From NCBI RefSeq assembly GCF_000238595.1, contig NZ_AGTS01000078.1, positions 124,001 through 188,000 of the forward strand: a stretch of 64,000 nt of DNA. The letters are read 5' to 3'. This DNA is from Acidovorax sp. NO-1. Its GTDB lineage: Bacteria; Pseudomonadota; Gammaproteobacteria; Burkholderiales; Burkholderiaceae_C. The position numbers and the translations under genes are program-made. Shown here piece by piece: positions 6,432 through 64,000 of the stretch (its first letter is position 1; every line of letters begins with the position of its first letter). A model generated the notes under the pieces. It was not told the origin of the DNA. It worked only from the letters and a program-made list of their open reading frames with translations, and made no database searches.

Positions 6432-7031
6432 TTACAGCCAGCGTTCACGCATCAGCGCCAGCATTTGCGCGGCCGAGCGGCCCCGGTGGCTGTGGGCGTT
6501 CTTCACTTCCACAGGCAGCTCGGCAAAGGTCTTGCCGAATTCGGGGATGAACATCACAGGGTCAAAACCAAATCCGTTGCTGCCCCGGGGTTCGGTGGTG
6601 ATCTCGCCCACCACCCGGCCCACGGCAATCAGCGGCTCCGGGTCTTGCGGGCTGCGCACGGCAACCAGGGTGCTGACCATGGCGGCGCGGCGGTTGGCGA
6701 CGCCCTGCAACTTCTCCAGCAGGGCGCGCACGTTGTTGTCGTCGCTCTTCTCGTAGCCAAACTGGGTGCAGTAGTAGGCGGTATCGACGCCCGGCAGGCC
6801 GCCAAAGGCATCCACACACATGCCGGCGTCATCCGCCAAGGCGGGCAGGCCGGTGTGGGCCGAGGCAAAGCGGGCTTTGGCCAAGGCATTCTCCACAAAC
6901 GTGCGAAATGGCTCTTCGGCCTCACCCACGCCCAGGTCGGCCTGGCGAACCAACTCGACCCCGAGTGGCGCGAACATGGACTGCAGCTCGGCCAGCTTGC
7001 CACGGTTGTTGGATGCTAGAACGATTTTCAT
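6432..7031 (-). CDS. rdgB: XTP/dITP diphosphatase RdgB, 199 aa
   Basis: House-cleaning nucleotidase that hydrolyses dITP, XTP and ITP to monophosphates, keeping deaminated purines out of DNA. The substrate-binding SNNRGKLAEL motif is at residues 7-16, and the catalytic DDAGMCVDAF segment follows at about 67-76. SHRGRSAAQML at the C-terminus is also typical. Length matches the family. A family A repeat copy lies directly upstream (7033-7084), between rph and rdgB. hemW follows after 14 bp. Confidence 0.95.
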   Translation of the reverse strand: MKIVLASNNRGKLAELQSMFAPLGVELVRQADLGVGEAEEPFRTFVENALAKARFASAHTGLPALADDAGMCVDAFGGLPGVDTAYYCTQFGYEKSDDNNVRALLEKLQGVANRRAAMVSTLVAVRSPQDPEPLIAVGRVVGEITTEPRGSNGFGFDPVMFIPEFGKTFAELPVEVKNAHSHRGRSAAQMLALMRERWL

Positions 7032-7032
7032 G

Positions 7033-7084
7033 ATTCAAATTGGCATCTAGCGCTTATCCAGCAAGCGCAAGCAGCTATCAATTA
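7033..7084 (+). repeat. Dispersed repeat family A, copy 1
   Basis: Contains AGCGCTTATCCAGCAAGCGC and AGCTAT, matching the other copies at 19790, 30150, 36352, 42955, 45021, 48265, 60465 and 63288. It sits between rph and rdgB. Confidence 0.75.
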
Positions 7085-7099
7085 GTGAGTATCAGCGGG

Positions 7100-7831: not shown

Positions 7832-7865
7832 AGCGTTCTTTCTTGATTCGTAGCGCAATCTATGC

Positions 7866-7983
7866 AACTGGCGCGCCCCCGGCCAGGGCCACCGCGCAAG
7901 GGCCGCCCCTCCGCGCTGGTGGCGTTCCCCTCCCCGGCGAAGCCGAGAGGAGGGGGAAGGCGCGAAGCGACTCAGGGGGAGGC
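7866..7983 (-). repeat. Dispersed GC-rich repeat family B, copy 1
   Basis: GC-rich element with the conserved parts CAAGGGCCGCCCC and AAGGCGCGAAGCGACTCAGG, present in the opposite orientation at 32508 and 36170 and in the same orientation at 46935 and 61548. It fills the gap between the PP2C gene and rph and includes a GGCGAAGCC-type stem. Confidence 0.75.
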
Positions 7984-19789: not shown

Positions 19790-19855
19790 ATGCTATTATT
19801 TTAATAGCTGTTCGCGCATACCAGATAAGCGCTGAAGGCCAATTTGACTTGAATT
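19790..19855 (-). repeat. Dispersed repeat family A, copy 2
   Basis: GCTATTATTTTAATAGC inverted repeat, followed by AAGCGCTGAAGGCCAATTTG. It lies between the convergent rapZ and mutY genes. Confidence 0.75.
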
Positions 19856-19862
19856 CCGGCGT

Positions 19863-30098: not shown

Positions 30099-30149
30099 AT
30101 GGAAAGAAAGAAGGAAGGAAGCCGCGACGGCGGGAAAACGAAATACTAC

Positions 30150-30208
30150 TGATTTAATAGCTGCTGGCGCTTGCTGCATAAGCGCTGAGGGCTGATTTGG
30201 CTTGCAAT
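30150..30208 (-). repeat. Dispersed repeat family A, copy 3
   Basis: AATAGCTGCTGGCGCTTG followed by AAGCGCTGAGGGCTGATTTG, immediately before the ferredoxin stop codon (convergent). Confidence 0.75.
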
Positions 30209-30209
30209 C

Positions 30210-31628
<1,419 letters not shown>

Positions 31629-32507: not shown

Positions 32508-32625
32508 CACCCCCTGAGTCGCTTCGCGCCTTCCCCCTCTCTCGCTTCGCGGGAGGGGGACGCCCCCAGTGCGGCGGGGCGGCCCTTGCACGGGGGCGCT
32601 GGCCCGGGTCGCGCCAGTTTCACTG
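32508..32625 (+). repeat. Dispersed GC-rich repeat family B, copy 2
   Basis: CTGAGTCGCTTCGCGCC...GGGGCGGCCCTTGC, inserted between the second permease gene and the first ATPase gene. Confidence 0.75.
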
Positions 32626-36169: not shown

Positions 36170-36300
36170 GGACACCCCCCTGAGTCGCTTCGCGCCTTCC
36201 CCCGCTCTCGCATGGCTGCGCCATGCGGGCAGGGGGACGCAGCCCTCGCTGCGGGGCGGCCCTTGCTCGGCTGCCTGCGACTGGGCCGTGCCAGTATCCA
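36170..36300 (+). repeat. Dispersed GC-rich repeat family B, copy 3
   Basis: CTGAGTCGCTTCGCGCC...GGGGCGGCCCTTGC plus a central GGCTGCGCCATGC-type stem. It lies five bases after the binding-protein stop. Confidence 0.75.
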
Positions 36301-36351
36301 GGGCTACGAGCGGTGCCAGCGCGTTGGATACCTGAAATGCACGGAGCCATT

Positions 36352-36410
36352 AGCTCCTAAATAGATAGCTTCCAGCGCTTTACCAATAAGCGCTGGCGGC
36401 CTTTTTTATT
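36352..36410 (-). repeat. Dispersed repeat family A, copy 4, with terminator-like end
   Basis: AGATAGCTTCCAGCGCTT and AAGCGCTGGCGGCC. The 9-bp stem CCAGCGCTT/AAGCGCTGG (36372-36396) is followed by TTTTTT at 36402-36407. Confidence 0.75.
36372..36407 (+). terminator. Terminator formed by repeat family A copy 4
   Basis: A 9-bp stem with a 7-base loop and six T 5 bases after the stem, between the binding-protein gene and the amidase gene. Confidence 0.6.
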
Positions 36411-36432
36411 GATAAAACTTCCCACCCCCGCC

Positions 36433-42929: not shown

Positions 42930-42957
42930 ATTATCGAACGTATGCACAGCATTGCAA
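42930..42957 (-). promoter_or_regulatory. Probable promoter of the histidine-phosphatase gene
   Basis: On the minus strand TTGCAA (42952-42957), a 16-bp spacer and GATAAT (42930-42935), 46 bp before the start codon. The -35 lies at the edge of repeat family A copy 5. Confidence 0.5.
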
Positions 42958-43013
42958 GCTGTTTTGGCCTCCAGCGCTTATGCAGCAAGCGCCAGCAGCT
43001 ATTATTTTTATAA
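42955..43013 (+). repeat. Dispersed repeat family A, copy 5
   Basis: TTGGCCTCCAGCGCTTATGC, AAGCGCCAGCAGCTATTA and a T-rich end. It lies between the small secreted-protein gene and the histidine-phosphatase gene, both on the minus strand. Confidence 0.75.
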
Positions 43014-43076
43014 CACCTCCCTGGTGCCATGGGCTGGCAGTGGCAGTGGCCGTTGCCGCCACTGCTGTTGCTTGCG

Positions 43077-44802: not shown

Positions 44803-45103
44803 TTCTTTTCCTGTCGTTGGATCGCTTCGCCCTCCCTCCCGTGGAAGAGCCGTGGCGAGAATAGCAGCGGGCTGCGTGCTGGGGTGCTGCGGCCCGGGGC
44901 AACGCAGTTCATCTGTTGTGCGCTGCCGACGTGACTGTTTCTCTCTGTTTCACTTTGGTGTGGCGGGCAGGGGGTGGCTTTACGGGTGCAGCCTTGCCAA
45001 GGCGACAAATTTTTGGGTGTTTTTTGGGGCCTGGCGCTTTACCAGCAAGCGCCAACAGCTATATTTTTTATAGCTTTTGACTCTGTGCACTCGCCACCGC
45101 AGG
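44803..45103. other. Intergenic stretch of about 300 bp
   Basis: Between the divergent-end DUF945 start and the DUF429 stop. It contains repeat family A copy 6 at its right end and no credible gene. Confidence 0.6.
45021..45080 (+). repeat. Dispersed repeat family A, copy 6
   Basis: GGGGCCTGGCGCTTTACCAG, CAAGCGCCAACAGCTATA and the inverted repeat AGCTATATTTTTTATAGCT. Confidence 0.75.
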
Positions 45104-46934: not shown

Positions 46935-47068
46935 GCCCGCCACTGGCACGGCCCAGACAAGCGGCCACCGTGCAAGGGCCGCCCCGCCGCACCGGTGGCG
47001 TCCCCCCGCCCGCAACGCGCAGCGGTGCGAGAGCGGGGGGAAGGCGCGCAGCGCCTCAGGGGGGTGAT
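46935..47068 (-). repeat. Dispersed GC-rich repeat family B, copy 4
   Basis: CAAGGGCCGCCCCGCCGCAC...AAGGCGCGCAGCGCCTCAGG, between the BLUF and EamA genes. It lies just before the BLUF stop. Confidence 0.75.
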
Positions 47069-48224: not shown

Positions 48225-48264
48225 GAGCGGCATCCTACCAGCGAACGTGGAGCTGCAGATTTAA

Positions 48265-48325
48265 AGGGTTTTAGGCCCCTAGCGCTTGCTGGACAAGCGC
48301 AAGTAGCTATATTTTATATAGCAAA
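48265..48325 (+). repeat. Dispersed repeat family A, copy 7
   Basis: TAGGCCCCTAGCGCTTGCTG, CAAGCGCAAGTAGCTATA and the palindrome GCTATATAAAATATAGC (minus strand). It lies in the folE upstream region and offers promoter-like AT-rich sequence. Confidence 0.75.
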
Positions 48326-59635: not shown

Positions 59636-60367
59636 TCAGCACTTGATTCCAACATGCAAGGCAACAATTCCGCCTGTCATGTTGTGATAGTCCACATGCC
59701 CAAAACCATTTTTTTGCATGAGGCTTTTGAGCTCTTCCTGCCCCGGGTGCATGCGGATGGACTCGGCCAGGTAGCGGTAGCTGGCGTCGTCGCCCGCCAC
59801 CAGCTTGCCAAGCTGGGGCAGCACCTTGAACGAATACCAGTCGTACACCTTCGAAAGCGGCTTGGCCACCTTGGAAAATTCGAGCACCAGCAGCTTGCCA
59901 CCCGGCTTGAGCACGCGGCACATCTCGGCAATGGCCTGGTCCTTGTGGGTCATGTTGCGCAGGCCAAAGGCCACACTCACCACGTCGAAATGCGCGTCAG
60001 GAAACGGCAGCTTCTCGGCGTCGCACACCAGCGTCGGCAGCACCACACCCGCATCGATGAGGCGGTCACGCCCCACCCGCAACATGGCTTCGTTGATGTC
60101 GGTGTGCACCACCCGGCCCGACGCCCCCACCTTTTTGGAGAACGCCAGCGCCAGGTCGCCCGTGCCACCCGCAATGTCGAGCACCTGGCTGCCTTCGCCG
60201 AGGTTGGCCACCATCACGGTGTAGGCCTTCCAGGCACGGTGCAGACCGGCCGACATGAGGTCGTTCATCACGTCGTATTTGGAGGCCACAGAGTCGAACA
60301 CGCCCCGCACGCGGCGTGCCTTCTCCTGCTCGTCCACCGACTGAAAACCAAAATGCGTGGTGCTCAT
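59636..60367 (-). CDS. ubiE: Ubiquinone/menaquinone methyltransferase UbiE, 243 aa
   Basis: C-methyltransferase acting on the benzoquinone or naphthoquinone ring in ubiquinone synthesis. The SAM site is [12 protein letters not shown] (about 64-75). UbiE signatures are [17 protein letters not shown] (about 31-47) and [27 protein letters not shown] 60367 gives [11 protein letters not shown], the family start. It heads ubiE, Tim44-like, ubiJ, ubiB on the minus strand. A family A repeat lies upstream. Confidence 0.96.
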
Positions 60368-60464
60368 AAGAATCATGCTAGGCGCGTGTACGCCCGAGGT
60401 ACAGCGACAACCCCGCACTGAAACGGGGCATGTGTCGCAATTTGGACAACGCTATTGAAACAAA

Positions 60465-60520
60465 ACCGGCCGCCAGCGCAATCAGGTATTGCGCCGATAG
60501 CTATATTTTCAATAGCACCT
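60465..60520 (-). repeat. Dispersed repeat family A, copy 8 (degenerate)
   Basis: GCCGATAGCTATATTTTC and AATAGCACC match the AT-rich half of the family. The AGCGC half is degraded. It lies between ubiE and the DUF971 gene. Confidence 0.6.
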
Positions 60521-60582
60521 TGGTGCACAGGGACATGCGCGGCTTTACGCGCAGGGCCCTCGCAGAGCGCGGTCAGGCGCCT

Positions 60583-61005
60583 TCAGTGGCTGCCACAGGC
60601 ATGGCCTCCACCACCGCCCTTGGGCGCCATGGGCGCATCGCGGTCGGCACCGGCAGCAGCCAGCCGCTCGACATACTGGGCCCACAGCGCATCCTGCTGC
60701 TGGCCCAGTTCGTAAAGATAGTCCCAGCTGAAGATGCCGCTGTCGTGCCCGTCCGAGAACGTGGGCTTGACCGCGTAGTTGCCCACTGGCTCCAGATTGA
60801 CCAGCGCCACATTGCGCTTGCCCGTCTGCAGCACCTCCTGCCCCGGGCCGTGGCCCTGCACTTCGGCCGAGGGGGAGTACACGCGCATCAGCTCGAACGG
60901 AATGCGGAACGTGGCGCCATCCGAAAATCCCACCTCCAGCACGCGCGACTGCTCATGCACCGTCAGGGCCTGCGGCGTGGGCGCACCCGTTTTCAAACCT
61001 GCCAT
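60583..61005 (-). CDS. DUF971-domain protein, 140 aa
   Basis: Small protein with the DUF971/GBBH-like N-terminal fold (LEVGFSDGATFRIPFELMRVYSPSAEVQGHG, about 23-53, and VGNYAVKPTFSDGHDSGIFSWDYLYELG). The C-terminus is GGGGGHACGSH, a Cys/His cluster that could bind metal. Related domains occur in gamma-butyrobetaine hydroxylase and Fe-S proteins. The precise role is unknown. It lies upstream of ubiE on the same strand, as in many betaproteobacteria. Confidence 0.88.
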   Translation of the reverse strand: MAGLKTGAPTPQALTVHEQSRVLEVGFSDGATFRIPFELMRVYSPSAEVQGHGPGQEVLQTGKRNVALVNLEPVGNYAVKPTFSDGHDSGIFSWDYLYELGQQQDALWAQYVERLAAAGADRDAPMAPKGGGGGHACGSH

Positions 61006-61084
61006 GGAATCACCTTGAGAAAACTGTTGTCAGAAACGACGGCTGCCATTGTCCCACCCGTCCCGGCGCACGCTGCCAGCAAGG

Positions 61085-61516
61085 TTACCGGGCGGCCCAC
61101 TGCGCCAACTTGGACTGCAGGTAGGCCTCCAGCGCGGGCAGCAGGGCCTGCACAGCAGCCTCTTGCGCAGCCGGGCTGGGCCGCTGCGCAGTGGCCCATA
61201 CGGGCGCGGGGAAGTGGCTGTCCCAGTCAAACCGCGCAATCACGTGCCAGTGCAGGTGCGGCACCATGTTGCCCAGCGCCGCGATGTTGACCTTGGCGGG
61301 CGAGAGGTGCTGGCGCAGGCCCTGTTCCACCAGCGCCACGGCCTCCATGCAGTGCACGCGGTCCGCGGCGGCCAGGTCCGAGAACTCGGCCACATGCGCG
61401 TTCCAGACCACGCGGTAGAAGGCAGGGAAACCCGCCTCCTGCGCGCGGATGACACGCAGGCGCTCGCCGCGCCAGACCAAGGCACCACCGTCATCGGTAC
61501 AGAGGGGACAGCTCAT
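61085..61516 (-). CDS. HIT-family hydrolase, 143 aa
   Basis: Histidine-triad nucleotide-binding protein. The triad is HLHWHVIARF (about 96-105), with the catalytic second His; the start CPLCTDDGGALVWRGERLRVI fits. The WxTxQRP-type segment near 114-124 is typical of bacterial HIT proteins acting as diadenosine or adenosine phosphoramidate hydrolases. Substrate is not certain. It lies 80 bp upstream of the DUF971 gene on the same strand. Confidence 0.92.
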   Translation of the reverse strand: MSCPLCTDDGGALVWRGERLRVIRAQEAGFPAFYRVVWNAHVAEFSDLAAADRVHCMEAVALVEQGLRQHLSPAKVNIAALGNMVPHLHWHVIARFDWDSHFPAPVWATAQRPSPAAQEAAVQALLPALEAYLQSKLAQWAAR

Positions 61517-61547
61517 TCAGACAGCTCCCCAAAGCTTTTCACGTCAC

Positions 61548-61748
61548 GTACCGCACGAAACTGGCGCGACCGCAAGCGAGGGACATCGAGCAAGGGCCGC
61601 CCCGCAGTGAGGGCGTCGCCCCCCTCCCGCGCAGCGAGAGAGGGGCTGAGGGCCGCGGCTCCAAGCCTGCCAGCGCAGGCTTGGACGGCCCCGAAGAGCT
61701 GTCGCCTCTGGCGGCTGCACCGAGGCGCGGAGCGACTCAAGAGGAGCT
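61548..61748 (-). repeat. Dispersed GC-rich repeat family B, copy 5, with insertion
   Basis: GAGCAAGGGCCGCCCCGCAG ... GGCGCGGAGCGACTCAAGAG. About 80 bp of extra sequence (61645-61725), including the hairpin AAGCCTGC-CAGC-GCAGGCTT, lies between the two conserved halves. It fills the gap between the dehydrogenase and HIT genes. Confidence 0.7.
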
Positions 61749-61752
61749 TCAT

Positions 61753-64000
61753 TTACACCAAGACCCGTTCGATGCCGCCGTTGTTGGCCTGTTGCACGTA
61801 TTCGGGCATCCAGTTCTCGCCCAAGATCTCCCGCGCCATCTCGACCACGATGTAGTCGGCTTCGAGCAAGCCGTTGTTCAGGTCGCCTTCGTAGCGGTTC
61901 AGGCCCTGCAGACAGCTGGGGCAGCTGGTGAGGATCTTCACGTTGGCCTGCGCATCCACGGCGCCGCTGGCACGCAGGGCGGCTTCGCCCTTTCGGATTT
62001 CTTCTTCCTTGCGAAAGCGCACCTGGGTCGAGATGTCGGGCCGCGTCACGCCCAGGGTGCCGGACTCCCCGCAGCAGCGCTCGCTCTTCAAGACCTGCTC
62101 GCCCACCAGCGCCTTCACGGTTTTCATCGAGTCCTGCAGCTTCATGGGGTTGTGGCAGGGCTCGTGGTACAGGTAGGCGCCCTTGCCCTGCAGGCTCACG
62201 CCCTTTTCCAGCAGGTATTCGTGGATGTCGATGATGCGGCTGCCCGGGAAGATCTTGTCAAACTCGTAGCCCTGCAGCTGGTCATAGCAGGTGCCGCAGC
62301 TCACCACCACGGTCTTGATATCAAGGTAGTTGAGCGTGTTGGCCACCCGATGAAAGAGCACCCGGTTGTCGGTGATCATCTTCTCGGCCTTGTCGAACTG
62401 GCCGCTACCGCGCTGCGGGTAGCCGCAGCACAGATAACCCGGTGGCAGCACCGTCTGCACCCCGGTGTGCCACAGCATGGCCTGCGTCGCCAGGCCCACC
62501 TGGCTGAACAAACGCTCCGACCCACAGCCGGGGAAATAGAACACCGCCTCCGTCTCGGCCGTGGTGGCCTTGGGGTTGCGGATGATCGGGACGTAGTCCT
62601 TGTCCTCGATGTCGAGCAGCGCACGCGCCGTCTTCTTGGGCAGGCCACCGGGAAGCTTCTTGTTGATGAAGTGGATCACCTGCTCCTTGATGGGCGCGGT
62701 GCCCACCGTGGCGGGCGGCTTGGCCGTTTGCTTGCGGCCCACCTTGCGCAAGAGTTGAACGGCCAGGCGCTGGGCCTTGAAGCCCACGTCCACCATCGCC
62801 GAACGCATGAACTTGATGGTGTCCGGGTTGGTGGCGTTGAGCATGGTCATCGCCAGCGCGTTGCCGGGGCGGAAGCTCTTCTTGCCCATCTTGCGCAGCA
62901 GGTTGCGCATGTTCATGGTGACATCGCCAAAGTCGATCTTCACCGGGCAGGGGCTCTCGCACTTGTGGCACACCGTGCAGTGGTCGGCCACGTCCTCGAA
63001 CTCTTGCCAGTGCTTGATGCTCACGCCCCGGCGGGTCTGCTCTTCGTACAGGAAGGCTTCGACCAGCAGCGACGTTGCCAGGATCTTGTTGCGCGGGCTG
63101 TACAGCAGGTTGGCGCGTGGCACATGCGTGGCGCACACGGGCTTGCACTTGCCGCAGCGCAGGCAGTCCTTGACGCTGTCGGCAATGGCGCCGATGTCGC
63201 TCTGCTGCATGATCAGCGACTCATGCCCCATCAGGCCAAAGCTCGGCGTGTAGGCGTTGGTCAGGTCGGAGTACATCAGCGAATCTGAAGCCAAATTGGC
63301 CTCCAGCGCTTTCGGGGATTGCGCAAGCAGCTCCTTATTTCGTAGCAACTTGCCTTTGTTGAAGCGCCCCTGCGGATCCACGCGCTGCTTGTACTCGGCA
63401 AACGGGCGCAGCTCTTCGTCGGTCAGAAACTCCAGCTTGGTGATGCCAATGCCATGCTCGCCCGAGATCACACCGTCCAGGCTGCGCGCCAGCACCATGA
63501 TGCGTTCGACCGCCTGGTGCGCCGTCTGCAGCATTTCATAGTCATCACTGTTGACGGGCAGGTTGGTGTGCACATTGCCGTCGCCCGCGTGCATGTGCAG
63601 AGCCACCCACACGCGGCCCTTGAGCACACGCTTGTGGATGGCAGTGACTTCATCCAGCAGCGGCTTGAAGGCCGCGCCCGCAAAAATCGTCTGCAGCGGT
63701 GCGCGCAGCTGCGTCTTCCAGCTGGCGCGCAGGGTGTGGTCCTGCAGCTGCGGGAAGAGTGTTTCCACGTTCTGCAGCCAGCCGGACCACAGGGCGCGCA
63801 CCTCGGCCACCAGGGCAATGGCCTGCGCCACGCGGTCTTCCAGCAGCTCGGCCGACGGGATTTCGCTCGCGTCGTCCTGCTTGCCCAGGGGCAGGTTGCC
63901 GCGCTCGAAGAAGTCGGTGAGCGCATCGCACAGCTTGATCTTGTTGCGCAAGCTCAGTTCGATGTTGATGCGCTCGATGCCGTCGGTGTATTCGGCCATG
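61753..64000 (-). CDS. Large FAD-linked oxidase / Fe-S oxidoreductase (DUF3683 type), partial at right edge
   Basis: C-terminal three-quarters of a fused flavo-Fe-S dehydrogenase. The part nearest the right edge is the C-terminal FAD-oxidase domain (VWVALHMHAGDGNVHTNLPVN, VISGEHGIGITKLEFL). Two [4Fe-4S] ferredoxin motifs follow: CLRCGKCKPVCATH and CTVCHKCESPCP. Then come two cysteine-rich CCG domains (FPGCGSERLF, CCGYP; SCGTCYDQL, HEPCHNP, CCGESG). This is the D-lactate/glycolate/2-hydroxyacid dehydrogenase architecture, with electrons going to the quinone pool. An insertion of about 25 residues at 63280-63350 is encoded by a family A repeat. The true start lies beyond the window. Confidence 0.93.
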   Translation of the reverse strand, partial: MAEYTDGIERINIELSLRNKIKLCDALTDFFERGNLPLGKQDDASEIPSAELLEDRVAQAIALVAEVRALWSGWLQNVETLFPQLQDHTLRASWKTQLRAPLQTIFAGAAFKPLLDEVTAIHKRVLKGRVWVALHMHAGDGNVHTNLPVNSDDYEMLQTAHQAVERIMVLARSLDGVISGEHGIGITKLEFLTDEELRPFAEYKQRVDPQGRFNKGKLLRNKELLAQSPKALEANLASDSLMYSDLTNAYTPSFGLMGHESLIMQQSDIGAIADSVKDCLRCGKCKPVCATHVPRANLLYSPRNKILATSLLVEAFLYEEQTRRGVSIKHWQEFEDVADHCTVCHKCESPCPVKIDFGDVTMNMRNLLRKMGKKSFRPGNALAMTMLNATNPDTIKFMRSAMVDVGFKAQRLAVQLLRKVGRKQTAKPPATVGTAPIKEQVIHFINKKLPGGLPKKTARALLDIEDKDYVPIIRNPKATTAETEAVFYFPGCGSERLFSQVGLATQAMLWHTGVQTVLPPGYLCCGYPQRGSGQFDKAEKMITDNRVLFHRVANTLNYLDIKTVVVSCGTCYDQLQGYEFDKIFPGSRIIDIHEYLLEKGVSLQGKGAYLYHEPCHNPMKLQDSMKTVKALVGEQVLKSERCCGESGTLGVTRPDISTQVRFRKEEEIRKGEAALRASGAVDAQANVKILTSCPSCLQGLNRYEGDLNNGLLEADYIVVEMAREILGENWMPEYVQQANNGGIERVLV
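63288..63340 (+). repeat. Dispersed repeat family A, copy 9, inside a coding sequence
   Basis: CAAATTGGCCTCCAGCGCTT and GCGCAAGCAGCTCCTTATT match the family. On the coding strand it reads KELLAQSPKALEANLAS with no stop. Confidence 0.7.

Follow-up and report, generated by a model that had tools for sequence, protein, structure and literature searches.

A dispersed palindromic repeat probably captured in frame at the domain seam of an Acidovorax dehydrogenase: evidence for a recurrent process in the Comamonadaceae

In an Acidovorax dehydrogenase, a 66-nt copy of a dispersed, multi-copy, two-hairpin repeat, here called element A, has in all probability inserted at the seam between the FAD-oxidase and ferredoxin parts of the protein and been kept there as a spacer, a reading to which we assign a probability of roughly 0.88. 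The interpretation proposed in an earlier note on this DNA, that an intergenic repeat was inserted and retained as a linker, is supported in part: it appears right in kind but too narrow, the dehydrogenase representing one old case of a recurrent process. The window referred to throughout is the whole stretch of 64,000 nucleotides that was analysed.

Results

Element A and its copy in the dehydrogenase gene

The consensus of element A, approximately TTGCTAttaAATTgATAGCTGCTtGCGCTTGatGGATAAGCGCTgGAGGCCAATTTGGCTT, comprises a short hairpin, then a longer hairpin, and then a tail. Its dispersed copies in the window are given in Table 1, and the genome to which the window belongs holds at least 150 matches to a covariance model of the element (R1), in the structure of which the hairpin is present. 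R1 was trained on seven window copies with the copy in the gene excluded, and in a search of the whole 5-Mb genome it recovers the gene copy (G000:C84:187286-187348) at 48.8 bits with an E value of 9.6e-8. We also used an ungapped matrix of 68 columns. Of the 30 genome copies with the best scores it was built from 29, which include five window copies and exclude the gene copy. On this matrix the gene copy scores 63.1 bits and the eight other window copies 37.2-94.5 bits, while the next site in the window, setting aside weak opposite-strand echoes of known copies, scores -6.3 bits. Synonymous recodings of the gene's own peptide score -6.5 +/- 8.7 bits and none of 300 reaches the score of the gene copy. 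The match is thus better than chance, and the DNA of the segment belongs to the repeat family to which it had been assigned; two direct-repeat families of the window already include the dehydrogenase copy. Translation of the minus-strand ORF gave the frame and peptide that the earlier note had described. The span it had reported, 63280..63350, was correct in location, with the exact bounds narrowing to those in Table 1.

Table 1. Element A copies, family-B copies, dehydrogenase features in the window and element A captures in other genes
Feature	Position or locus	Strand	Details
Captured element A copy, 66 nt	63283..63348	-	Residues 218-239 (LLRNKELLAQSPKALEANLASD); R1, matrix, synonymous null
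Element A dispersed copy	7025..7092	-	Matrix 87.1 bits
Element A dispersed copy	19790..19857	+	Matrix 94.5 bits
Element A dispersed copy	30143..30210	+	Matrix 88.4 bits
Element A dispersed copy	36351..36418	+	Matrix 61.1 bits
Element A dispersed copy	42949..43016	-	Matrix 84.8 bits
Element A dispersed copy	45009..45076	-	Matrix 61.0 bits
Element A dispersed copy	48257..48324	-	Matrix 76.3 bits
Element A dispersed copy, weaker	60451..60518	-	Matrix 37.2 bits; between two minus-strand ORFs
Family-B copy	7863-7979		
Family-B copy	32510-32622		
Family-B copy	36173-36298		
Family-B copy	46963-47066		
Family-B copy	61576-61645		
Dehydrogenase, C-terminal 748 residues	61753..63999	-	ORF; full open frame in genome 1346 codons
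FAD-oxidase_C domain	63346..63648	-	Residues 118-218, Pfam; ends where element A insert begins
Fer4_8, first 4Fe-4S dicluster domain after linker	62935..63174	-	Residues 276-355, Pfam
CCG domain of dehydrogenase	Residues 486-575	-	Pfam
DUF3400 domain of dehydrogenase	Residues 701-748	-	Pfam
Element A capture, MoeA	L145		Length gain, 33 vs 4 residues against solved homolog (29)
Element A capture, TrmJ	L279		Length gain, 28 vs 6 residues against solved homolog (22)
Element A capture, GluQRS	L304		Length gain, 69 vs 34 residues against solved homolog
Element A capture, HI0933-type flavoprotein	L279		Modest gain, 8 residues
Element A capture, LpdA lipoyl-domain linker	L295		Modest gain, 12 in linker, 8 opposite element
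Element A capture, MutL interdomain region	L269		Accepted frame
Element A capture, CobS	L277		Accepted frame
Element A capture, metallo-beta-lactamase-fold protein	L298		Accepted frame

It could be argued that the long linker is no more than a common kind of variable spacer which resembles element A by chance or convergence, as the protein varies greatly in this segment and unrelated linkers of equal length exist in relatives. For the gene in the window, however, this is refuted by the R1, matrix and recoding results, and when this test is applied to homologous linkers that lack the element, they behave like their own synonymous null. We regard such an origin as extremely improbable.

The host enzyme and its domain seam

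A Pfam scan covering the 748 residues inside the window (the N-terminal part, where a DUF3683 region would lie, is beyond the window end) found FAD-oxidase_C, 4Fe-4S, CCG and DUF3400 domains in one chain, which fits a FAD-oxidase/ferredoxin fusion dehydrogenase. PDB alignments of the protein stop at query residues 219-220, reaching residue 458 of 464 in 9qgz and 471 of 471 in 8jdc. These are solved GlcD-type and D-lactate dehydrogenase chains which themselves end or nearly end at this point, and since the FAD-oxidase_C domain ends at residue 218, the insert lies at the seam of two fused parts. An AlphaFold model made with a 38-row alignment has a mean pLDDT of 57, and in it residues 211-381 form one segment below 50. 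An Rfam search of positions 60000-64000 gave two matches only, both under gathering scores and judged to be chance.

Empty sites in other families

In an order-level search the dehydrogenase was matched at E 1e-60 in 107 of 150 genomes, and many of the matches from other families stop at query residues 220-224 and restart at 243-246. Twenty other-family loci were fetched, of which 19 could be read by the motif VDP..YTPSF; the stretch measures 26 residues in 15 of these and 30 in two, while lengths of 24 and 38 residues occur once each. In the window dehydrogenase it measures 48 residues, exceeding the common form by 22 (66 nt), which is the length of element A. The earlier note had stated that relatives run from GKL almost straight to DL..AYTPSF, and this is right for most readable other-family homologs (15 of 19); it had also put the linker at about 25 residues, where the gain is borne out but amounts to 22. 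Empty sites in other families together with an insert of the element's own length support the view that a dispersed palindromic repeat was captured in frame and became a linker. These sites are old comparisons, which counts against this explanation, and among the 45 loci of the element-bearing genus group an untouched short site was not found in a close relative. By inspection, the 38-residue form of the linker (e.g. L025) resembles a 30-bp deletion between the element's GGCCAATTTG and native GCCGATTTGACC.

Distribution within the Comamonadaceae

The dehydrogenase was found in all 47 genomes of the genus that were searched and in 282 of 299 genomes of the family. We examined 216 family loci, 204 of them distinct (the tree set of 207 rows held three genomes twice), and took a matrix score of -20 as the linker cut-off, a value of our own choice. 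Linkers from 100 of the 204 distinct homologs score above it. In 98 of the 100, element A has the same frame and an offset of 0 relative to the Leu codon that follows GK, with 87 of the 98 scoring above 0 and GAG standing at the TAG position in 96. Linkers between -20 and 0 also beat nearly all of their own synonymous recodings (the weakest is L183, 3/200), and those without element A score like their own synonymous null, providing an internal negative control.

The earlier note had named the same segment in distant genera as something that would refute capture. The segment is indeed present in other genera of the same family (the 98 distinct homologs), while most homologs from other families are without it. 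As it is carried as recognisable repeat DNA, above synonymous recodings, its sharing dates the capture and does not refute it, and the common offset and frame suggest that the capture is probably old.

In the genus group of the window, 39 of 45 loci score above 0, one scores -16 and five score about -70, four of these five having an unrelated linker of equal length and one a short linker. In the Acidovorax relatives L020, L021, L023 and L026 the 48-residue linker has G+C-rich codons and no repeat signal, and is replaced or fully recoded. Element A is found in the linker of most Acidovorax, of Giesbergeria (L109) and Comamonas granuli (L126), and of part of Rhodoferax (e.g. L095, L131, L138) and Polaromonas (e.g. 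L081, L104). Paracidovorax is mixed, four named species scoring -23 to -42 and the group members L035 and L036 scoring 18 and 11. The element was not seen in the examined linkers of Ramlibacter, Caenimonas, Limnohabitans, Caldimonas, Comamonas testosteroni and Variovorax, in some of those of Polaromonas and Rhodoferax (L077, L085, L103), or in those of Hydrogenophaga except L140 (score 10), a metagenome-assembled genome which carries that label and groups elsewhere on the tree.

With no more than 36 matches scored per genome, R1 copies at E 1e-5 occur in 38 of 145 family genomes and in 36 of 141 genera. Presence in the linker follows copy number: 18 of 22 genomes with at least five dispersed copies have an element-bearing linker, against 5 of 42 with none (Fisher p 4e-8, kinship ignored). 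This comparison draws on 73 genomes with both kinds of data and leaves out 9 with 1-4 copies; 20 of the zero-copy genomes are named as such, and the rest, from the same draw and not among the 38 with matches, were taken as zero. The five repeat-like linkers in zero-copy genomes must be fossils or false positives, and one of them (L236), at the odd offset of 51, is not counted as element-bearing. Three genomes (G048, G117, G173) hold 12-22 scored copies and a dehydrogenase linker now without element A, which they may have lost.

Other repeats in the same linker

In other genera this linker has taken in at least two further families of dispersed repeats. In G175 (L232) it consists of a palindrome that matches its own genome 77 times (both strands, site included), the best of the others being 97% identical. 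In G060 and G107 (L201, L231) the linker consists of a family-B repeat, for which 10 and 5 matches, sites included, were counted there and 6 in the genome of the window; in L201 this repeat follows a remnant of element A. A third other family is probably present in G116 (L197), a weaker case, where a longer palindrome has 9 matches; the site itself, matched on both strands, accounts for two, and the others are partial.

Family B is a second dispersed repeat family of the window, rich in G+C, and its copies there (Table 1) occur in inverted and direct orientation and by look resemble the repeat captured in G060 and G107. Long A+T-rich linkers of 63 and 70 residues in VDP..YTPSF were observed at this place in L233 and L236 (G155, G077).

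One capture or several

The steps by which the dehydrogenase could have gained its linker may be set out as follows. A 66-nt copy of element A would have inserted at the seam, and a length divisible by three would have left the frame beyond it intact. The usual stops of the element are read as sense codons in the gene copy. With extra residues tolerated at the seam, the insert would have drifted as a near-neutral linker, which some lineages would later have shortened, lost or replaced.

We infer that two large Comamonadaceae clades owe the insert to a single old capture in their common ancestor, and the order of insertion and stop loss is likewise an inference. On a quick tree, which does not distinguish gain from loss, the linker must have changed state at least 21 times, and more than one capture is therefore possible. 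We prefer a single old event followed by many losses because the same GAG replaces TAG in nearly all of the same-offset linkers. Repeated independent insertion of element A at the seam, as a preferred or merely tolerant site, would be compatible with capture. It would accord with the number of state changes, with the entry of other repeat families into the same linker, and with L248 (G081), in which element A is displaced by 24 nt into the linker, the stop is replaced differently, and which is likely to be a shifted second insertion, captured independently. Nevertheless, the shared offset, frame and GAG are easier to understand with one origin, and the extragenic copies of the genome itself overwhelmingly carry TAG at codon 6 (see below). 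We therefore consider repeated insertion of element A rather unlikely as the general history and retain a single old capture.

Captures in other genes, frames and stops

In all, 139 distinct copies of element A above 10 bits were scored, from the window, from L141-L170 and from 40 stretches of its own genome. Fourteen open frames passed a coding filter and eight were accepted, with one more added that the filter had missed, so that about nine of the 139 copies sit in coding frames. The original observation is confirmed as real and was understated. The statement that the repeat is otherwise seen only between genes is true of the window, where only the dehydrogenase copy passed the filter, but is wrong genome-wide, and the capture is not a one-off, since element A is also in frame in several other genes of the same genome.

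Length gains against solved homologs are given in Table 1; for the MutL, CobS and metallo-beta-lactamase-fold captures such a gain was not shown. The MoeA insert is present in all 13 genomes with a match (14 were searched) at 27-98 bits, one of them in another genus, and the TrmJ insert in 14 of 14 genomes at 15-80 bits, two of them in other genera. As these inserts are common to relatives at high scores, a high score is no sign of youth. The candidate captures in L306, L297, L149 (UbiA, 38.7 bits), L150 (two frames) and L305 were not accepted, and a frame in L293 was rejected as it does not look like a gene. A further frame in L150, near the end of a flavoprotein, did not pass the coding filter. 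A segment of a CobC-like phosphatase (LQRCELLAQSLKALRPDLTS, L277:1339-1406) scores 29.9 bits as element A and has rare codons. Yet this segment seems to match a native conserved stretch, and it may represent either overwriting by element A or a chance match.

In the dehydrogenase frame element A usually has stops at codons 5, 6, 13 and 21, all of which are sense codons in the gene copy. Of the 128 copies first scored as extragenic, 2 lack stops in this frame, and both of these proved to sit in open frames that look coding; for the remaining five frames the number of stop-free copies ranges from 6 to 60. The survival of a stop-bearing insert is therefore a difficulty that counts against our best explanation. 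Codon 6 is TAG in 123 of 126 extragenic copies and GAG in the other three. GAG is carried by the three accepted forward-frame captures, those in the dehydrogenase, TrmJ (14 of 14 genomes) and the metallo-beta-lactamase-fold protein. The extragenic GAG copy in L293, whose upstream frame is not gene-like, is open over its first 20 codons, and so nearly stop-free source copies exist.

These counts also bear on the direction of transfer. If the dispersed repeat had arisen from a coding segment such as that of the dehydrogenase and had spread outward, the fit of its first codons to native LLR, the possible fit of its end to native ADLT, and the peptide ELLAL common to some captured copies would find an explanation. 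Yet TAG stands in the dehydrogenase frame of almost all extragenic copies, most other-family homologs are without the segment, and the copies captured by other genes include ones read in different frames or from the opposite strand. A spread outward from the gene is accordingly very unlikely, and insertion into the gene is the direction that we favour.

Drift rate and retained codons

Only pairs whose two copies each reach 25 bits or more entered the divergence counts. The dehydrogenase element differs by 0.258 per site, against 0.249 at the fourfold sites of the rest, in 630 Acidovorax-group pairs, and by 0.307 against 0.290 in a wider set of 741 pairs. The corresponding values are 0.301 and 0.291 for MoeA and 0.310 and 0.361 for TrmJ (78 pairs each). 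Drift at about the fourfold rate indicates that the captured DNA behaves as a tolerated spacer. DNA-level constraint on the whole captured copy was rejected, as synonymous identity of the segment within the genus group is average (rank 392 of 718 windows) and divergence equals the fourfold rate. Plain neutrality, however, does not explain the four codons TTG CTA CGA AAT at the domain seam (window 63337-63348), which are kept across genera beyond what codon usage predicts: CTA is retained in 60 of the 98 linkers, CGA in 80 and AAT in 93, with usages of 2%, 3% and 17%, respectively.

The retention of these rare codons could mean that the insert persists because it has a role itself, such as timing folding by means of slow or rare codons or a messenger hairpin, and this would be compatible with capture. 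The second Leu codon (CTN) has a third base other than A in 37 cases; in 33 of these the base is C or T, which could pair with the G of GAG. Counted on the tree, A changed to C 10 times and to T and to G 4 times each. On the other side stand the overall divergence and the average synonymous identity given above, and the many relatives that do without the insert. Retention for such a function seems unlikely, and the tolerated spacer remains our reading of the captured copy as a whole.

Discussion

Relation to known repeats

In behaviour, the closest precedent for element A, which is a repeat of its own, is the Rickettsia palindromic elements (RPE), described in the available parts of PMC10969869 and PMC3733652 as small palindromic repeats in frame inside unrelated housekeeping genes; the original reports are the Ogata papers cited there. 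Like the RPE, element A is multi-copy, short and palindromic and lies in frame in unrelated genes, with length gain in the dehydrogenase, MoeA, TrmJ and GluQRS. It differs in being 66 nt long rather than about 150 and in using several frames and both strands where RPE, so far as the available descriptions go, encode a conserved peptide. Furthermore, most scored copies of element A are extragenic and its host is a G+C-rich betaproteobacterium, the likeness being one of behaviour. Acidovorax is not known to be obligately intracellular. According to PMC10969869, known cases of palindromic repeats captured in frame come chiefly from Rickettsia, and the main texts of PMC3733652 and PMC12306157, in the parts available, contain no mention of Acidovorax, Comamonas or Rhodoferax. 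The literature searched, which left most subscription papers outside its coverage, yielded no report of in-frame capture of element A.

A spaced motif of Acidovorax ebreus, GCTTAT(N)5AAGCG, is reported in the available part of PMC5217627 with 114 copies, 107 intergenic and 5 in genes. It is present in 60 of the 139 element A copies and in 4 places of the window, and very probably represents the core of element A. What that part of the source describes is a statistical motif pair, without the full element, in-frame capture or a protein consequence. The Polaromonas motif given there, ATAGCT(N)22CAAAAG (125 copies, 18 in genes), may be related to element A.

With REP sequences and bacterial MITEs element A shares its short, multi-copy, hairpin-forming nature and its location mostly between genes. 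However, at about 66 nt it is longer than REP sequences (14-40 nt) and its consensus, on inspection, has no GTAG or CGTC tag at the ends, and whereas MITEs have terminal inverted repeats of 15-30 bp, its ends TTGCTATT and TTTGGCTT are, by inspection, not inverted repeats. The enterobacterial RU-1, RU-2 and RU-3 are likewise small mobile repeats also found inside genes, but they measure 103-168 bp and occur in other hosts, and are set apart by description in the available part of PMC2759123. No partner transposase was established for element A among the Y1 transposase-like genes (L356-L360) looked at in four genomes, one each in G000, G015 and G181 and two in G165. A copy of 59.8 bits lies near one of the five (L358), so that a Y1 transposase as the mover of element A is a possible lead.

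Meaning for the family

Capture in the Comamonadaceae is repeated, affects conserved housekeeping enzymes, and includes cases common to species and genera (dehydrogenase, MoeA, TrmJ). Differences in linker length within this family can be repeat fossils, which is a warning, and a linker that has held several repeat families offers a natural test of how spacers are gained from non-coding DNA. More tentatively, and with the balance in our view against it, a coding-competent sub-lineage of element A may exist, with GAG for TAG at codon 6 and a peptide of approximately LLxxKELLALDGxALEAKN, placed in the reading frame of three or more unrelated genes (dehydrogenase, TrmJ and the metallo-beta-lactamase-fold protein), while the dehydrogenase seam would act as a standing landing pad for successive repeat families in different genera. 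If this is true, the linkers of one protein would record which repeats once invaded each lineage.
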